Below, piece after piece: positions 1,689-8,925 of a stretch of DNA of 64,000 nt; position 1 is the stretch's first letter, and every line of letters begins with the position of its first letter. This DNA is from Kushneria avicenniae (GTDB lineage: Bacteria; Pseudomonadota; Gammaproteobacteria; Pseudomonadales; Halomonadaceae): NCBI RefSeq assembly GCF_900112585.1, contig NZ_FOLY01000001.1, forward strand, positions 372,001 to 436,000, in the 5' to 3' direction. A program made the position numbers and the translations under genes. Under the pieces are notes generated by a model. That model ran no database searches. It saw only the letters and a program-made list of their open reading frames with translations, and was not told the origin of the DNA.

Positions 1689-1894
1689 CTGCGCTGTTCT
1701 CCCTATCCCGGATGCGCGGCCGCGCTCGTCTGTCGTCCTCTCCTGACGCTATCGGAGTACACAGCGGCTGACTATACTGGCCGACGATTTTACGTTGATT
1801 AGTCCGATACTTATGAATCGCTACTATAAGCCAGTTGTCGGCAGCAGTAAAAACCGCACCCGATGCGGCAAGTCATTGTGTGGAGCCCTGTCTG

Positions 1895-3313
1895 ATGCAT
1901 CCTGTTGCCCTGATTGATCAGTGGGCGCATAACCCGACAGTTCTGGTGCTGATTGTCGGGATGGTTGCCCTGCTCGAATCGCTGGCGGTGGTCGGTCTGA
2001 TCATGCCGGGCGTGGTCATGCTGACGGCCGCCGCGTCACTGGCTGGTCACGACCATGTTTCGATCATGACGCTGATGATCAGCGCCTTCATCGGCGCCGT
2101 ATTGGGTGACGGTCTGAGCTACTGGCTCGGGCGCAAGCAGTGCGATCGCATCCGCAGCTGGTGGCCATTCAATCGGCATCCCGAGTGGGTCGACAAGGGC
2201 GAGCGATTCTTTACTCGCCATGGCACCCTTTCGGTGGCCTTTGGCCGCTTTGTGGGCCCGGTGCGTCCTATCATTCCCATGGTGGCCGGCATGATGCATA
2301 TGCCACCGGCACGCTTTCTGACCGTCAACGTGATCTCGGCTCTGCTCTGGGCACCCGCCTATCTGTTGCCCGGTTACTATCTGGGCCGCAGCTGGCAGCG
2401 ACTGATCCATCTGCCCCCCGGCACCGAGCAGTGGCTCTCGGCGCTGCTGTTCATGCTCATCGTGCTCGGCTTTGCCCTGTCATGGCTGCGACGTCAGTTC
2501 GATCGAGACAGCCGTATCTATCGTGGTCTTTTGATGAGGGCACGGCGTTACCGTCTCTCGCGACGGCTCTGGCTGAGCCTTCGACAAAAACGCATTGGCG
2601 GTGAAGTACCGCTGGCGTCCATTGCACTGCTACTGGCAGGAATTGTGGCCTTCGCTGGATGGACCTGGCTGGTAGCGGGCCTTCAGCAACCGCTGTCGCT
2701 TGACGTTGCAGCGCGCAACTTCTTTTCACGGCCGGACAACGTTGCCCTGATGCGCGCCTCGACGCTGCTTGATCGTATTGGCGATGCCATCGGCATCATG
2801 GCCATGCTTTTGCCATGGCTTTTATGGCTTTTATGGCGAAAGCGCCTTGCCGCCCTGATCCACTGGGGGGGCGCCATGGCACTGCTGTCCTTCAGCAACA
2901 CGACGCTCAAGCATTGGGTGGGCCGTGCCCGGCCCGACACGCCCGAGCATCTGGTTGGATCTTTTTCCTATCCGAGCGCCCACACTTCGACCGCTGTCGT
3001 GTTCTGGGGACTCAGCGCCGCTTTCATTGCCGAGGGGCTTTCAAGCCGTGCTCGACGCTGGCCCTACTGGATCGCCATCGTGATCGCCAGCATTGTCGCC
3101 CTGTCGCGGCTGACCTTTGGCGTTCACTGGCTCAGTGACCTGATCGGCGGCGCACTGCTGGGACTGGTCATCTGCGGCGCAACCCGCATCAGCTACCACT
3201 TCTTCGCCCATCGCTATCTTGCAGGTGCCGTCAGCCACCGACAGCTGGCGCTGCTGACGCTGGCCTCCGTGGTACTGGTAACCGCACGAATCCTGTGGCT
3301 GCCCGCCTTTTAA
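1895..3313 (+). CDS. DedA-family / PAP2 phosphatase fusion membrane protein
   Basis: A 472-residue integral membrane protein in two parts. The N-terminal half (about 1-200) is a DedA/SNARE-associated domain, with the family segments GDGLSYWLGR, RFVGPVRPIIPMVAG and a helix-rich surround. The C-terminal half (about 230-470) is a PAP2 lipid-phosphatase domain with the three signatures KHWVGRARP, SYPSAHTS and SRLTFGVHWLSD. DedA proteins flip polyprenyl phosphates or phospholipids and PAP2 enzymes dephosphorylate undecaprenyl-PP or phosphatidate, so recycling of a lipid carrier is the natural inference. I chose the ATG at 1895 because GGAG lies 9 bp upstream; an in-frame TTG at 1835 lacks such a site. 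It converges on mpl. Confidence 0.9.
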   Translation: MHPVALIDQWAHNPTVLVLIVGMVALLESLAVVGLIMPGVVMLTAAASLAGHDHVSIMTLMISAFIGAVLGDGLSYWLGRKQCDRIRSWWPFNRHPEWVDKGERFFTRHGTLSVAFGRFVGPVRPIIPMVAGMMHMPPARFLTVNVISALLWAPAYLLPGYYLGRSWQRLIHLPPGTEQWLSALLFMLIVLGFALSWLRRQFDRDSRIYRGLLMRARRYRLSRRLWLSLRQKRIGGEVPLASIALLLAGIVAFAGWTWLVAGLQQPLSLDVAARNFFSRPDNVALMRASTLLDRIGDAIGIMAMLLPWLLWLLWRKRLAALIHWGGAMALLSFSNTTLKHWVGRARPDTPEHLVGSFSYPSAHTSTAVVFWGLSAAFIAEGLSSRARRWPYWIAIVIASIVALSRLTFGVHWLSDLIGGALLGLVICGATRISYHFFAHRYLAGAVSHRQLALLTLASVVLVTARILWLPAF

Positions 3314-4834: not shown

Positions 4835-5110
4835 GAAAAATAGGGCTCTCCGTCAAAAGCCGGATCAGCCTAGCATGGCCCGTGAATCGACGTCAGGCTC
4901 CGCTTGACCTGCCACGCCTGCATCTCTGACTGGATCAGGACTGCAGGTAATGGCTATGATCGCCCCACGGGCCATGCCCGATGCCGACCATCGACCGGCT
5001 GACCGATCAACAGCAGCGCTGCCCACAAGAGGTGCGCCACGTTGCCGAGAGACAAAGCGGTCAGCCACTGCGGCGCTGGTCGACCTTCATTCATAAGAAG
5101 CAGGAAGCTC

Positions 5111-6370
5111 ATGACCTCCAACAACGCCTTTTACGCGCAATCAGGTGGTGTTACGGCCGTTATCAATGCCAGTGCCTGCGGCGTCATCGAGACGTGCCGC
5201 AAGCACAGCGATCGCATCGGCACCCTCTATGCCGGACACAACGGCATTATCGGTGCCCTCACCGAGGAGCTGATCGACACCAGTCTGGAGAGCGACGAGG
5301 CCATTGCAGCATTGAGACACACGCCCGGCGGCGCCTTTGGCTCCTGCCGCTACAAGCTCAAGGATATCGAGACGCACCGCAGTCAGTACGAGCGTCTCAT
5401 CGAAGTCTTCAAGGCACACGACATTCGCTACTTCTTCTATAACGGTGGCGGTGACAGCGCCGACACCTGCCTGAAGATCTCTCGTCTCTCCGAGCACATG
5501 GGTTATCCGCTGCAGGCGATCCATGTCGCCAAGACCGTTGATAACGACCTGCCCATCACCGATAACTCACCGGGATTTGGCTCGGTCGCCAAGTACATCG
5601 CCACCTCGACTCGTGAAGCGGCGCTGGACATCGCCTCAATGTGCTCGACGTCCACGAAAGTATTCATTCTGGAAGCCATGGGGCGTCATGCCGGCTGGAT
5701 TGCAGCCGCGGGTGCACTGGCCAGCGACACCAACGACGGCCCGCCGCACATGATTCTGCTGCCGGAGGTGCCCTTTGACCGTCAGCGCGTCATGGCCCAC
5801 ATCGATGCCGCGGTCAAAAAGCACGGCTACTGCGTGGTGGTGGTCTCTGAAGGAGCACGCTATGAAGACGGCACTTTTCTGGCCGACGCCGGCAACACCG
5901 ACGCCTTCGGTCACCGCCAGCTTGGCGGCGTAGCCCCCACGCTGGCCGGCATGGTCAAGCAGGATCTGGGCTACAAGTATCACTGGGCGGTCGCCGACTA
6001 TCTGCAGCGCGCCGCACGCCATCTGGCCTCGGCGGTCGATGTTGAACAGGCCTACGCCGTGGGTCAGCGCGCCGTCGAGTGTGCCCTTGAAGGCAAGAAT
6101 GCCGTCATGCCGGCCATTCAGCGCGACAGCGAAGAGCCCTACAGCTGGTCGATCGTGGATGCCCCGCTGGAGCGGGTGGCCAATCAGGAAAAGTTCATGC
6201 CGGCGGAGTACATCCGTGAAGATGGCTTTGGCATCAACGATGCCGGGCGTCGCTATCTGAGCCCCCTGATTCAGGGCGAAGACTTCCCGCCCTTTGAAAA
6301 CGGCCTGCCGAAGGTGGCCAGCCTGCGCCTGGAACAGATCGCCAAAAAGCTGCCCGAGTATCATCTCTAG
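5111..6370 (+). CDS. pfp: Pyrophosphate-dependent 6-phosphofructokinase
   Basis: Phosphorylates fructose-6-phosphate reversibly using PPi rather than ATP. The 419-residue protein has the PFK fold with an N-terminal AQSGGVTAVIN phosphate-binding loop. Two specificity positions indicate PPi: the NGGGDSADT segment puts Asp where ATP enzymes carry Gly104 (E. coli numbering), and VAKTVDNDLP puts Lys in place of Gly124. The catalytic TVDND aspartates are present. I chose the ATG at 5111, preceded by AGGAAG; upstream in-frame codons give a 23-residue tail with no homology. A strong terminator follows. A classical inorganic pyrophosphatase is encoded 2 kb downstream, so the PPi pool is handled locally by two enzymes. 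Confidence 0.93.
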   Translation: MTSNNAFYAQSGGVTAVINASACGVIETCRKHSDRIGTLYAGHNGIIGALTEELIDTSLESDEAIAALRHTPGGAFGSCRYKLKDIETHRSQYERLIEVFKAHDIRYFFYNGGGDSADTCLKISRLSEHMGYPLQAIHVAKTVDNDLPITDNSPGFGSVAKYIATSTREAALDIASMCSTSTKVFILEAMGRHAGWIAAAGALASDTNDGPPHMILLPEVPFDRQRVMAHIDAAVKKHGYCVVVVSEGARYEDGTFLADAGNTDAFGHRQLGGVAPTLAGMVKQDLGYKYHWAVADYLQRAARHLASAVDVEQAYAVGQRAVECALEGKNAVMPAIQRDSEEPYSWSIVDAPLERVANQEKFMPAEYIREDGFGINDAGRRYLSPLIQGEDFPPFENGLPKVASLRLEQIAKKLPEYHL

Positions 6371-6476: not shown

Positions 6477-8231
6477 CTACTGGAACATCATGATGACCAC
6501 CAGCAGCAACAGTGCGGCCGCAATCCCCTGCCACAGACGAAGCGTTCCCTGCCGCGGCGCGGCGGGCTGTCGCTTCTCGGGTAAAGAGACCATATCATCC
6601 GCGCCACCCTCATCGGCCGATGCCGTGGCATGGCGCAGCGCCTGAACCAGCTCGGACAGGCGCCTGAAACGCAGCGCTCGACGCGGTGACAGCGCGCGTT
6701 CCAGCGCAATGTCCAGAGACGCCGGCACACGCGGATTGATCCGGCGAGCTGGACGATAGTCCAGCGTCGACAGGGCCTCTTCGCTATCGAGCGTGTCGGG
6801 TGCAATGGCATAGGGCATGATGCCGGTCAGCAGCCAGTAAATGGTCGAGGCCAGCGAGTACTGATCGCTGCGACGACTCACCCCCAGTTTCAACGCGTAT
6901 TCCGGAGCGCTGTGCATGCCCAGTCCGCCATCGCGGGCCAGCGCCAGCGCCGCGTTGTTGTCATCATCAAGGCGGCGGGCACAGGCACCGAAATCGATCA
7001 GCACGACCTGTTCATGCTGATCGATCATGATGTTATCGGGACGTATGGCCTGATGGAGAATGTCGCGACGGTGCAGCGAATGGACGGCGCGGGCCAGCTG
7101 GCGCGCGATATCAAGACGCTGATCGATGCTGGCCTCGGGGTGCTGCTCCAGCCAGCGATCCAGCGGCAACCCCTCGACGGGCCGCATCAGATAATAAAGA
7201 TGCCGACGAGGGCGCGGCGGCGACACAACCCTGACTACGAAGGTAGAGCGCACTCGCTCGCCGATCCACTGCTGGAGCAGAAAATGCTCCAGATAGGTAT
7301 TTCTGGACGACAGTTCGGGACTGGGTACCTTCATCACCATCCGGCGCAGCGAGGTTTCGTCCCTGACGCCATAAACGTGTGCCCGCGCCGTTCTGGAAAT
7401 GATCGACTCGATCACAAAACCGTCCAGCCGGTCGCCCACTTCGAGCTCGGCCGGAATCGGTAGCTGACCGGGAAGCTGGACAGGCGATCCCATGTCCTCT
7501 TCGGGCAGTGCATCAATGCGCACCAGCTGAAAGCAAAAGGTTTCGGCACCATAGCCGCGCGCTCCGGCCCGCTCGCGCGCCATGTCGGCCAGGCGTTCGC
7601 AGGCCGCATCAAGGTCGCTGTCCCTTTGACGAATCGCGTGCACGTAGTCGGTGGGGGTAAGCGTGCCCCGTACTGCCTGAGAAGTGAACAAAAAGACATC
7701 GCCCTGCTTGAGCGGCAGGCTCATGTGATCGATGTCGATGTTGTTGTCCATGCCCAGCGCACGGGAGGGATAGCGATAGCCGCCCAGATCCGTGACATGA
7801 TCGCGCGAGAGCTGCTCGAACTCGGCGCCGCGCAGGCGAAAGACCAGCGTGTCGCCCATATGAAACAGAAAGCTTTCACGGCTACGGAAAATAACGGCCG
7901 ACAGCGAGCTGATATAGCTGCCGCCCTGAACGTAGCGGCTCTGGCTGTAACACCAGCCATTGAGCGCGCGCAGCACTCTCGTGGCCGAAGTCTTGATGTC
8001 CCAGTGATCGGGTGTTGAGTAGTAGTCGCTGAGAAAGCCGCGCACTGAAATATCGCTCGCCTGACGGGCAATGGCGTTGCGCCAGGTGGAGTCCGCAATG
8101 ATCGCACAGGCGCCCTTGCTTTCGAGCTGACGAGCATTTTCGGGGATCTGGACCGACATCGAGGAGCGATGACGGCGATGATCGGGCGCCACGAACGCAT
8201 GCCCAAAACTTAGTGACAGGCCACTTTGCAC
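6477..8231 (-). CDS. PP2C-phosphatase/serine-threonine kinase fusion, both domains catalytically degenerate
   Basis: A 584-residue fusion of the bifunctional kinase-phosphatase family: PP2C-like domain (about 1-240), protein-kinase-like domain (about 265-530) and a single C-terminal membrane helix (last ~20 residues). Both active sites look damaged. In the PP2C domain the family ADG metal motif reads ADS and the later SDG motif reads SQA; only HMGDT survives. In the kinase domain the VAIK-type lysine (VMKV) and DFG (LIDFGAC) remain, but the catalytic HxD motif reads LHQAIRPDN, so the proton-accepting Asp is Ala (codon GCC on the coding strand). The likely role is a membrane-tethered pseudoenzyme scaffold or sensor. 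The start at 8231 keeps the LSLSFGHA strand typical of the family. It is divergent from ppa. Confidence 0.85.
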
Positions 8232-8388
8232 GTTACTGGCATCCTTTTTTACGAGGCAACGGATTTATCGTATTGTGCGGATCGGGAGCTGCCGATCGAG
8301 GGGATTGGTAATCGTGCTGCCTGGTTCGTATAATTTTCCACGATTTTCACTCTCGAATTTTCACCCCGCAAACGCAAGGACTCGATCG

Positions 8389-8925
8389 ATGAGTTTCGAC
8401 AGGATCCCCGCCGGCAAGGATGTCCCCCACGATCTGTTCGTGGCGATTGAAATTCCGGCCAACCATACGCCGATCAAGTATGAAATCGACAAGGATCTCG
8501 ACGCGCTGCTGGTCGATCGCTTCATGCCGACACCGATGTTCTACCCGGCCAACTACGGTTTCATCCCCAACACGCTGGCCGACGACGGCGACCCGCTGGA
8601 TGCACTGGTCGTCACGCCCTACCCGGTACAGCCCGGCAGCGTCATTCGTGCACGCCCCGTGGGCATCCTGCACATGACCGATGAAGCCGGTGAAGACGCC
8701 AAGCTGGTCTGCGTGCCCCATCAGAAGCTTTCCGCCGCCTATGACGATGTCGAGGAAGTGACCGACCTTCCCGAGCTGCTGCGTCAGCAGATCGCGCATT
8801 TCTTCGAGAACTACAAGGATCTTGAAAAGGGCAAGTGGGTCAAGATCGACAGCTGGGGCGACAGGGCCGCGGCCATCAAGGCCATCGAGAAATCCATCGA
8901 TGCCTTCCAGAAGGAAAGCAACTGA
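8389..8925 (+). CDS. ppa: Inorganic pyrophosphatase (family I)
   Basis: Soluble Mg-dependent enzyme hydrolysing PPi to phosphate and pulling biosynthetic reactions forward. The 178 residues match bacterial family I enzymes. Visible active-site segments are [14 protein letters not shown] (about 20-33), [12 protein letters not shown] (about 51-62), the signature [10 protein letters not shown] (about 64-73) and [14 protein letters not shown] near the C-terminus. I chose the ATG at 8389 with AAGGA 8 bp upstream; earlier in-frame starts add 38 residues with no family counterpart. It ends in a strong hairpin. Confidence 0.96.

Follow-up and report, generated by a model that had tools for sequence, protein, structure and literature searches.

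The locus and its central gene

We analysed a window of 64,000 nucleotides of Kushneria avicenniae DNA, in which a gene encoding a PP2C-like and a kinase-like domain lies on the minus strand between genes for a phosphofructokinase and an inorganic pyrophosphatase. Its GTG start is at 8231 and its stop at 6477-6479, the 584 codons are free of stops, and an AAGGA-like site can be seen by eye about 10 bases 5' of the GTG. The features of the locus are as follows.

5111..6370, plus strand: phosphofructokinase gene (here pfp), neighbour in convergent orientation; Pfam PFK match at 5042-6370, E 1.2e-46
6477..8231, minus strand: whole gene, 584 aa, GTG start; PP2C-like domain, kinase-like domain and membrane helix
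6483..6554, minus strand: predicted C-terminal membrane helix (tail anchor), residues 560-583; model helix and hydropathy
6621..7448, minus strand: kinase-like (pseudokinase) domain, residues 262-537; Pfam Pkinase and VIA-align
7497..8231, minus strand: PP2C-like (pseudophosphatase) domain, residues 1-245; AlphaFold2, VIA-align and Foldseek
8232..8388, no strand assigned: divergent intergenic region common to the gene and ppa, with TTGGTA-18-TATAAT at 8305-8334 on the plus strand
8389..8925, plus strand: ppa, inorganic pyrophosphatase, divergent neighbour; Pfam Pyrophosphatase, E 9.3e-58

The kinase-like half gives a Pfam Pkinase match of 73.7 bits over residues 283-479, and the PP2C-like half gives a PP2C_2 match of 17.3 bits, which is under the 24-bit cut-off. 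Scanning the protein with Pfam models returned no domain beyond these two, and none of the COG3899 type. An AlphaFold2 model was run on an alignment of 53 orthologues (mean pLDDT 79.7); its pTM of 0.56 leaves the packing of the domains uncertain, and residues 145-164 have a pLDDT below 50. The PP2C-like half of the model aligns with the S. agalactiae phosphatase 2pk0 (VIA-align Z 23.6, 2.9 A, 227 residues, model residues 2-241), although the VIA-align rows are nearly all kinases and little beyond 2pk0 informs this half. Foldseek matches the same half to M. tuberculosis PstP (1txo, E 1.2e-11), and by sequence the N-terminal half has its best PDB match in 2j82 (E 0.0045). The kinase-like half aligns with M. 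tuberculosis PknB (5u94; VIA-align Z 26.3, 2.8 A, 250 residues, model residues 262-537). The final helix of the model spans residues 560-583 with a hydropathy peak of 2.11, and the peak is above 1.6 in 114 of 116 orthologue tails; model and hydropathy together support it as a predicted tail anchor.

An earlier note on this DNA had placed the gene correctly at 6477-8231, the strand being minus. Its claim of membrane tethering is borne out as a helix predicted by AlphaFold2 and hydropathy, and descent from the PP2C-kinase fusion family, which it had also proposed, agrees with the same domains in the same order and with full-length homology to the active-type proteins described below.

Active-type and dead homologues

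We aligned 207 distinct homologues from the Halomonadaceae and the rest of the order, 25 identical proteins having been removed from 232, and sorted them by the Asp residues of the HxD and SDG motifs. A length filter of 480-760 aa removed proteins such as L151, which lies at a contig edge; L153, L159 and L243 were also excluded, and in one search the relatives taken were the best 80 of 165. Both Asp residues are present in 91 of the 207 proteins, which we call active-type, and neither is present in the other 116, which we call dead; none has just one. All 116 dead rows come from the Halomonadaceae. Of the active-type rows, 86 belong to 30 further families of the order, and the remaining 5 are second copies within the Halomonadaceae (second copies of this type include L152 and L163-L166). 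The active-type proteins retain every catalytic position examined, bar one gap at NED. Outside the order, a class-level check gave the full active pattern in 28 of 28 best-scoring rows, these being only the best matches, beside 86 active-type rows at order level, so that weaker matches may include dead forms. No homologue with a single centre lost was found among the 207 aligned proteins and the 28 best class-level rows.

The excluded L159 (G300:C1:413478-414197) is a PP2C-half-only match with 31% identity over query residues 3-242. It lies about 2 kb before an active-type copy in genome G300 on the same strand and is perhaps a tandem second PP2C or a fusion gene.

Among the salt-loving Halomonadaceae, a match to the gene is present in 200 of 201 genomes and in all 24 genera, the single miss being an 88% complete assembly. 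In 199 of the 200 matched genomes the best E value is at most 1.8e-163, compared with 3.3e-115 for the best active-type match in the order; the remaining one is the contig-edge fragment L151, which carries the dead PP2C motifs. For 17 of these 24 genera the motifs themselves were read, and they were read as well in named Halomonas, Vreelandella, Billgrantia, Onishia, Modicisalibacter, Salinicola and other strains. The nearest named orthologues are from Kushneria (73-86% identity), where each of 10 genomes has exactly one match, and against the 91 active-type rows identity is 28-37% across 541-568 aligned residues. An error confined to a single strain or assembly is excluded by the presence of the gene in 10/10 Kushneria genomes.

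In a quick, unrooted tree of 39 of the 116 dead and 80 of the 91 active-type rows (85% identity cut), the dead rows fall on one side of a single branch with an SH-aLRT of 100 and a length of 0.8. They likely form a clade, though an unrooted tree can be read in other ways, and both centres were apparently lost once, at the base or stem of the Halomonadaceae.

Catalytic motifs of the two halves

The positions discussed below are the following.

8163..8168, minus strand: R22-S23, NED/NQD motif, Glu/Gln to Arg and Asp to Ser
8088..8093, minus strand: D47-S48, ADG motif, Asp kept, Gly lost
7674..7682, minus strand: S184-Q185-A186, SDG motif, Asp lost
7527..7559, minus strand: R225-G226-Y227 insertion and FCFQ (232-235), replacing the C-terminal DN motif
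7329..7331, minus strand: K301, beta-3 (VAIK) lysine, kept; K in 113/116
7272..7274, minus strand: Q320, alpha-C Glu to Gln; Q in 115/116, E in 91/91 active-type
7047..7055, minus strand: H393-Q394-A395, HxD motif, catalytic-base Asp lost
7032..7034, minus strand: N400, catalytic-loop Asn, kept; N in 110/116
6987..6995, minus strand: D413-F414-G415, DFG motif, intact in this protein

The SDG- and DN-type Asp residues of PP2C phosphatases are metal ligands. At position 22, Arg is found in 115 of 116 dead proteins, compared with E in 58 and Q in 32 of the 91 active-type ones, and at position 23, the NED Asp, the dead proteins have S (114) or A (2), compared with D in 90/91 active-type rows, the other row being a gap. 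The ADG motif reads ADS (residues 46-48) in this protein; its Asp is kept in 115/116 and its Gly in 0/116. The SDG motif reads SQA (residues 184-186), position 185 being Q in 101, R in 11 and P in 4 of 116 against D in 91/91 active-type rows. The DN motif is present in 0/116 dead and 91/91 active-type proteins, a difference independent of the HxD and SDG residues used for the grouping; near it, R225 and G226 occur in 116/116 and Y227 in 114/116, with a gap there in all 91 active-type rows. The GDT Asp (D127) is kept in 116/116, and R51 is found in 114/116. With a PP2C fold present and the SDG Asp and DN missing from 116/116, this half would, by its sequence, be a pseudophosphatase.

In the kinase-like half, the HxD segment reads HQAIRPDN (residues 393-400), and position 395 is Q in 54, R in 34, A in 10, G in 6, H in 5, N in 4, L in 2 and S in 1 of 116, against D in 91/91 active-type rows. 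The lysine motif of the Kushneria protein reads VMK (K301). The DFG Asp is found in 112/116, and the third residue is S in 84, G in 22, A in 8, N in 1 and V in 1, so that the Gly is changed in 94/116. K301, N400 and D413 are all present in 109 of the 116 dead proteins. At least one of them is lost in the other 7 (L041, L042, L131, L137, L140, L141 and L150), all three being lost in L041 and L042 and the lysine and Asn in L150; all seven have S23 and an altered SDG segment, and 6/7 have the RGY insertion. It is plausible that the kinase-like half would bind ATP in most species, yet these seven orthologues suggest that ATP binding is not indispensable. A pseudokinase is defined, in the accessible part of a 2025 review, by loss of at least one of the VAIK Lys, HRD Asp and DFG Asp (PMC12599244), and the HRD Asp is lost in 116/116.

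The earlier note had read ADS, SQA, HQAIRPDN, the lysine and the DFG correctly for this protein, and the missing SDG Asp fits its reading, which is qualified by the ADG Asp that is still present; the losses of the NED Asp, the C-terminal DN motif and the alpha-C Glu go beyond its list. Its main claim, that both catalytic centres are lost, holds across the family at the level of sequence (116/116), and the alignment with Halomonadaceae orthologues that it had proposed gives 116 rows that share the dead motifs. Catalytic loss is complete in every orthologue read (116, fewer than all 200 genome matches), and loss of canonical catalysis in both domains is well supported by these motifs. Regarding the surviving residues, the retained lysine is general (113/116), but an intact DFG is no family rule (Gly in 22/116). 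The suggestion that nucleotide binding may survive agrees with the 109/116 proteins that keep K301, N400 and D413, but the idea of a nucleotide sensor is weakened by the seven with losses and by the change of the alpha-C Glu to Gln in 115/116.

Conservation and selection

We estimated dN/dS, another step that had been proposed, by the Nei-Gojobori method in 7 of the 10 Kushneria genomes (21 pairs; mean dS 0.85, which makes the values rough). The median for the whole gene is 0.083, indicating purifying selection. By part, it is 0.048 for the PP2C half, 0.148 for the linker, 0.069 for the kinase half, 0.242 for the juxtamembrane part (11/21 pairs usable) and 0.261 for the membrane helix, and the control genes give 0.035 (ppa), 0.026 (pfp) and 0.213 (dsbD, 15/21 pairs usable). 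Purifying selection on the two dead domains is strong, though weaker than that on ppa and pfp. Decay had earlier been doubted from the open frame; matches in 200/201 genomes and the dN/dS of 0.083 make a far stronger case, and rule out a decaying remnant.

Only in the dead lineage does the conservation of the PP2C-like half exceed that of the kinase half. Among dead pairs at 40-60% overall identity (n=209), identity is 60.8% in the PP2C half and 46.7% in the kinase half, compared with 49.0% and 46.6% among active-type pairs (n=2242); this contrast is descriptive, as pairs are not independent. There are 35 positions conserved in at least 97% of the dead clade and in less than 60% of active-type proteins, 22 of them within residues 1-245. 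Dead-clade-specific conserved positions include R51, N52, G150, G151, Y152, T190 and L191, and the conserved switches include D23S, L155P, L182F and E320Q together with the inserted R225-G226-Y227. Several of the new conserved residues (R22, R51-N52, G150-G151-Y152, R225-G226-Y227 and FCFQ) sit, in sequence, inside or beside the former PP2C metal motifs. The HxD position varies over 8 residues, whereas there is less variation at the PP2C positions that were replaced.

Genes around the locus

Flanking genes in the window are Aldedh (proA-like), VTT-PAP2, Mur ligase (mpl-like), pfp, ppa and dsbD; the product of the VTT-PAP2 gene (1835-3313) joins a VTT (DedA) domain at its N-terminus to a PAP2 phosphatase domain at its C-terminus. 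The product of pfp presumably uses pyrophosphate, and its start at 5111 is our inference from matches elsewhere, which begin at residues 20-24. The longest ppa open reading frame (8275-8925) starts at a GTG at 8275, and the Pfam-matching protein from the ATG at 8389 is complete; the TATAAT-like element at 8329-8334 falls inside the longer frame. A promoter and terminator scan of the locus found no more than chance (1 promoter-like site; shuffles mean 1.0).

Across the family, ppa lies divergently upstream in 135 of 140 dead loci, some genomes being counted twice, and pfp lies convergently downstream in 112 of the 136 dead loci with enough flank. ppa was not found beside the dead gene in L131, G310 and G316, and genomes G310 and G311 have no match to pfp although the dead gene is present in both. 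We therefore rejected dependence of the gene on pfp. In G310 (L168:2105-5983; a 2.7 Mb genome with no phosphofructokinase match), the dead gene lacks K301 and N400 and has an apparent C-lobe insertion, and its divergent neighbour, judged by eye, is a cNMP-binding/CBS/nucleotidyltransferase-like protein, not ppa.

A nitrate-transporter-like gene is found in 33/59 active-type loci and 0/140 dead loci (flanks of about 1.5 kb to 5 kb). In L107:2-4702, from outgroup family f47, an active-type PP2C-kinase gene lies between a nitrate-transporter-like gene and mpl, which is downstream on the same strand; this arrangement is possibly a trace of the ancestral locus. mpl is downstream on the same strand in 51/51 dead loci with mpl in reach and in 1/59 active-type loci, many of which have a 1.5 kb flank.

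A proposed role and its alternatives

We propose that the protein is a tail-anchored inner-membrane double pseudoenzyme that acts as a non-catalytic adaptor, a reading that we hold with modest confidence as the probable one. The PP2C-like half would provide the surface to which a partner protein or an anionic ligand binds. Regulation would fall to the kinase-like half as a clamp that could still hold nucleotide in most species and would carry out no canonical phosphate transfer, and the C-terminal helix would anchor the complex to the membrane on its cytoplasmic side. The role may be that of a sensor or scaffold, as first suggested. Against a purely adaptor role stands the joint retention of K301, N400 and D413 in 109/116, which a pure scaffold would not need and which would allow an altered reaction; D47 and D127 of the PP2C-like half are also kept and could permit weak metal binding. 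A more tentative reading, which we think unlikely, is that this near-universal protein is a reader: an arginine-rich PP2C-like pocket would bind a phosphorylated or pyrophosphate-bearing ligand or protein, and the dead kinase would be an ATP-level gate. The acidic metal motifs would here have given way to conserved arginines (R22 in 115/116, R51 in 114/116 and the inserted R225 in 116/116). If this were true, Kushneria would have a module for phospho-signalling output in a genome where no live Hanks kinase was detected.

One alternative is an altered catalysis, in which the kinase-like fold would bind ATP-Mg and perform another reaction, as SelO (AMPylation) and SidJ (glutamylation) do in working without the canonical catalytic Asp. 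K301, N400 and D413 occur together in 109/116, and E. coli SelO, tabulated as WHLK / Hgvmntdn / DYG in the accessible part of PMC12599244, also lacks the HRD Asp and keeps the Asn. We nevertheless rate it as rather improbable: the alpha-C Glu is Gln in 115/116, the DFG Gly is changed in 94/116, the lysine, Asn or Asp is lost in 7/116 orthologues that still have the PP2C-like motifs, and the catalytic loop contains no newly conserved acidic residue. Acidic residues elsewhere are the basis for another alternative, a weak kinase or phosphatase activity of the canonical kind that relies on residues which have migrated; the dead clade has acidic columns at D/E17, D78, E137, D148, D195, D206, E212, E262, E325 and D374, and D47 and D127 are kept. 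However, the NED, SDG and DN acids were lost together with the HxD Asp and the alpha-C Glu, none of the new acidic columns falls within the catalytic loop, the SDG segment or the DN segment, and D148 is conserved as Asp in only 91% of the clade, so we consider such activity very unlikely. Catalytic Asp residues at shifted positions had been named in advance as an observation that would overturn the loss of catalysis; the alignment gives them no support, and we rejected rescue by a shifted Asp for the catalytic loop, SDG and DN segments, with D148, in the poorly modelled loop 145-164, leaving a small doubt.

The neighbourhood suggests a different partnership, in which the protein would work with the adjacent pyrophosphatase or phosphofructokinase, tethering pyrophosphate metabolism to the membrane or regulating it. 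The divergent ppa (135/140 loci) and convergent pfp (112/136) are in its favour, but the gene is co-directional with neither, it is present in G310 and G311 without pfp, ppa does not adjoin it in L131, G310 and G316, and conserved order alone is expected of a stable core locus; we regard this role as quite doubtful. That the protein could be a decoy or an allosteric regulator of an active paralogue is suggested by the second, active-type copy in some Halomonadaceae (L152, L163-L166). In Kushneria, however, each of the 10 genomes has one match and the dead gene is the sole Pfam Pkinase match above the cut-off, and in the window's own genome a PP2C_2 search, which did not cover SpoIIE-type PP2Cs, gave no match over the cut-off. 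In Kushneria, the genus in which Pkinase was searched, there is thus no sign of a live partner of the Hanks-kinase or PP2C_2 type, so that regulation of a live paralogue, or a live Hanks kinase as partner, is unlikely there; we rejected a decoy in Kushneria on these grounds and hold the idea to be highly improbable in general. A decaying remnant would account for the lost catalytic residues, but no stop lies inside the family matches listed, dN/dS is 0.083 and the gene is kept in 2.7 Mb genomes, which brings its probability close to nil.

Comparison with known systems

The adaptor that we propose is closest in architecture to the PpkB/PA1782-type fusion of P. aeruginosa, with which it shares the domain order, a similar length and a C-terminal hydrophobic stretch (active-type rows L099 and L107). 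We take the active-type rows to be PpkB-like, PA1782 itself lying outside the alignment. They differ from the dead proteins in that the HxD Asp and the SDG and DN Asp residues are present in 91/91 of them and absent from 116/116 here. In the accessible part of PMC6954232, PA1783 is nasA, PA1782 ppkB and PA1781 nirB, and PA1782 is named among the P. aeruginosa Ser/Thr kinases (PMC8560001). The active-type loci with a nitrate-transporter-like gene agree with this nasA-ppkB-nirB order, and the nas linkage of PpkB-type fusions is missing here, a nitrate-transporter-like gene standing beside 0/140 dead loci. Tethering of PP2C and kinase in Pseudomonas was reported in 2005 (PMC1262709, accessible part), and a 2025 survey of PP2Cs includes Pkinase-bearing members in Pseudomonadota; the words "inactive", "catalytically" and "pseudophosphatase" do not occur in the accessible text of that survey (PMC12088040). 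With bacterial PP2C phosphatases (PstP 1txo, 2pk0 and 2j82) the fold is shared, but the NED Asp, SDG Asp and DN are absent here.

For the most part, bacterial pseudokinases have been recognised as sequence families without a known function. SelO belongs to a different subfamily that is not known to carry a PP2C domain, and EssB/YukC, likewise not known to carry one, has a different genomic setting. By analogy, EssB/YukC could nonetheless be a model for how an adaptor of this kind could work: it is a membrane-anchored pseudokinase of type VII secretion with a scaffold role, although all three of its motifs are degraded (PMC12599244, accessible part). The SelO AMPylator, according to the same portion of that review, lacks the HRD Asp and keeps the lysine, Asn and DYG Asp (PMC12599244), and the motif pattern here would at most be compatible with a SelO-like AMPylation. 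Degraded Hanks-kinase motifs are likewise described there for the ActPs1-3, GLW, DYD and DLHK families, several of them membrane-associated: GLW has HRD changed to GLW and a bulky residue for the ATP lysine, whereas our proteins have HQ followed by a residue other than D and keep K301; ActPs2 has all three motifs changed, and in DYD and DLHK the ATP and metal motifs have diverged (PMC12599244). About 40% of CP1 kinases are given as pseudokinases in this source, and the Leptospira CP1 protein Q8F1M0 reads VLIK / Hkslcpgn / DFS, which is the commonest pattern of the dead clade, with Lys and Asn kept and the HRD Asp lost (PMC12599244). The kinase-side motif pattern alone is therefore not new. CP1 kinases are, however, described there as lacking transmembrane regions, and their pseudokinases as tied to COG3899 (PMC12599244), in contrast to the membrane helix and PP2C-like domain found here; we rejected CP1 membership on the membrane helix, despite this one protein with an identical motif pattern.

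Modes of action of pseudoenzymes have been reviewed (PMC10211241, accessible part), and in the main text of the 2025 bacterial pseudokinase review, as far as accessible, the terms "PP2C" and "Halomon" do not occur (PMC12599244). In the open-access papers searched, no description of the family turned up, nor did any Halomonas pseudokinase or any data on whether the gene is essential. Halomonas species are used in biotechnology and are genetically editable. The protein is a tractable case for studying the role of dead signalling enzymes without an evident live partner. Compared with the systems above, and judged from the open-access papers searched, what is new is a double pseudoenzyme lineage within the PP2C-kinase fusions, in which the kinase and phosphatase centres were lost together in one protein that was then kept almost without exception across a family.
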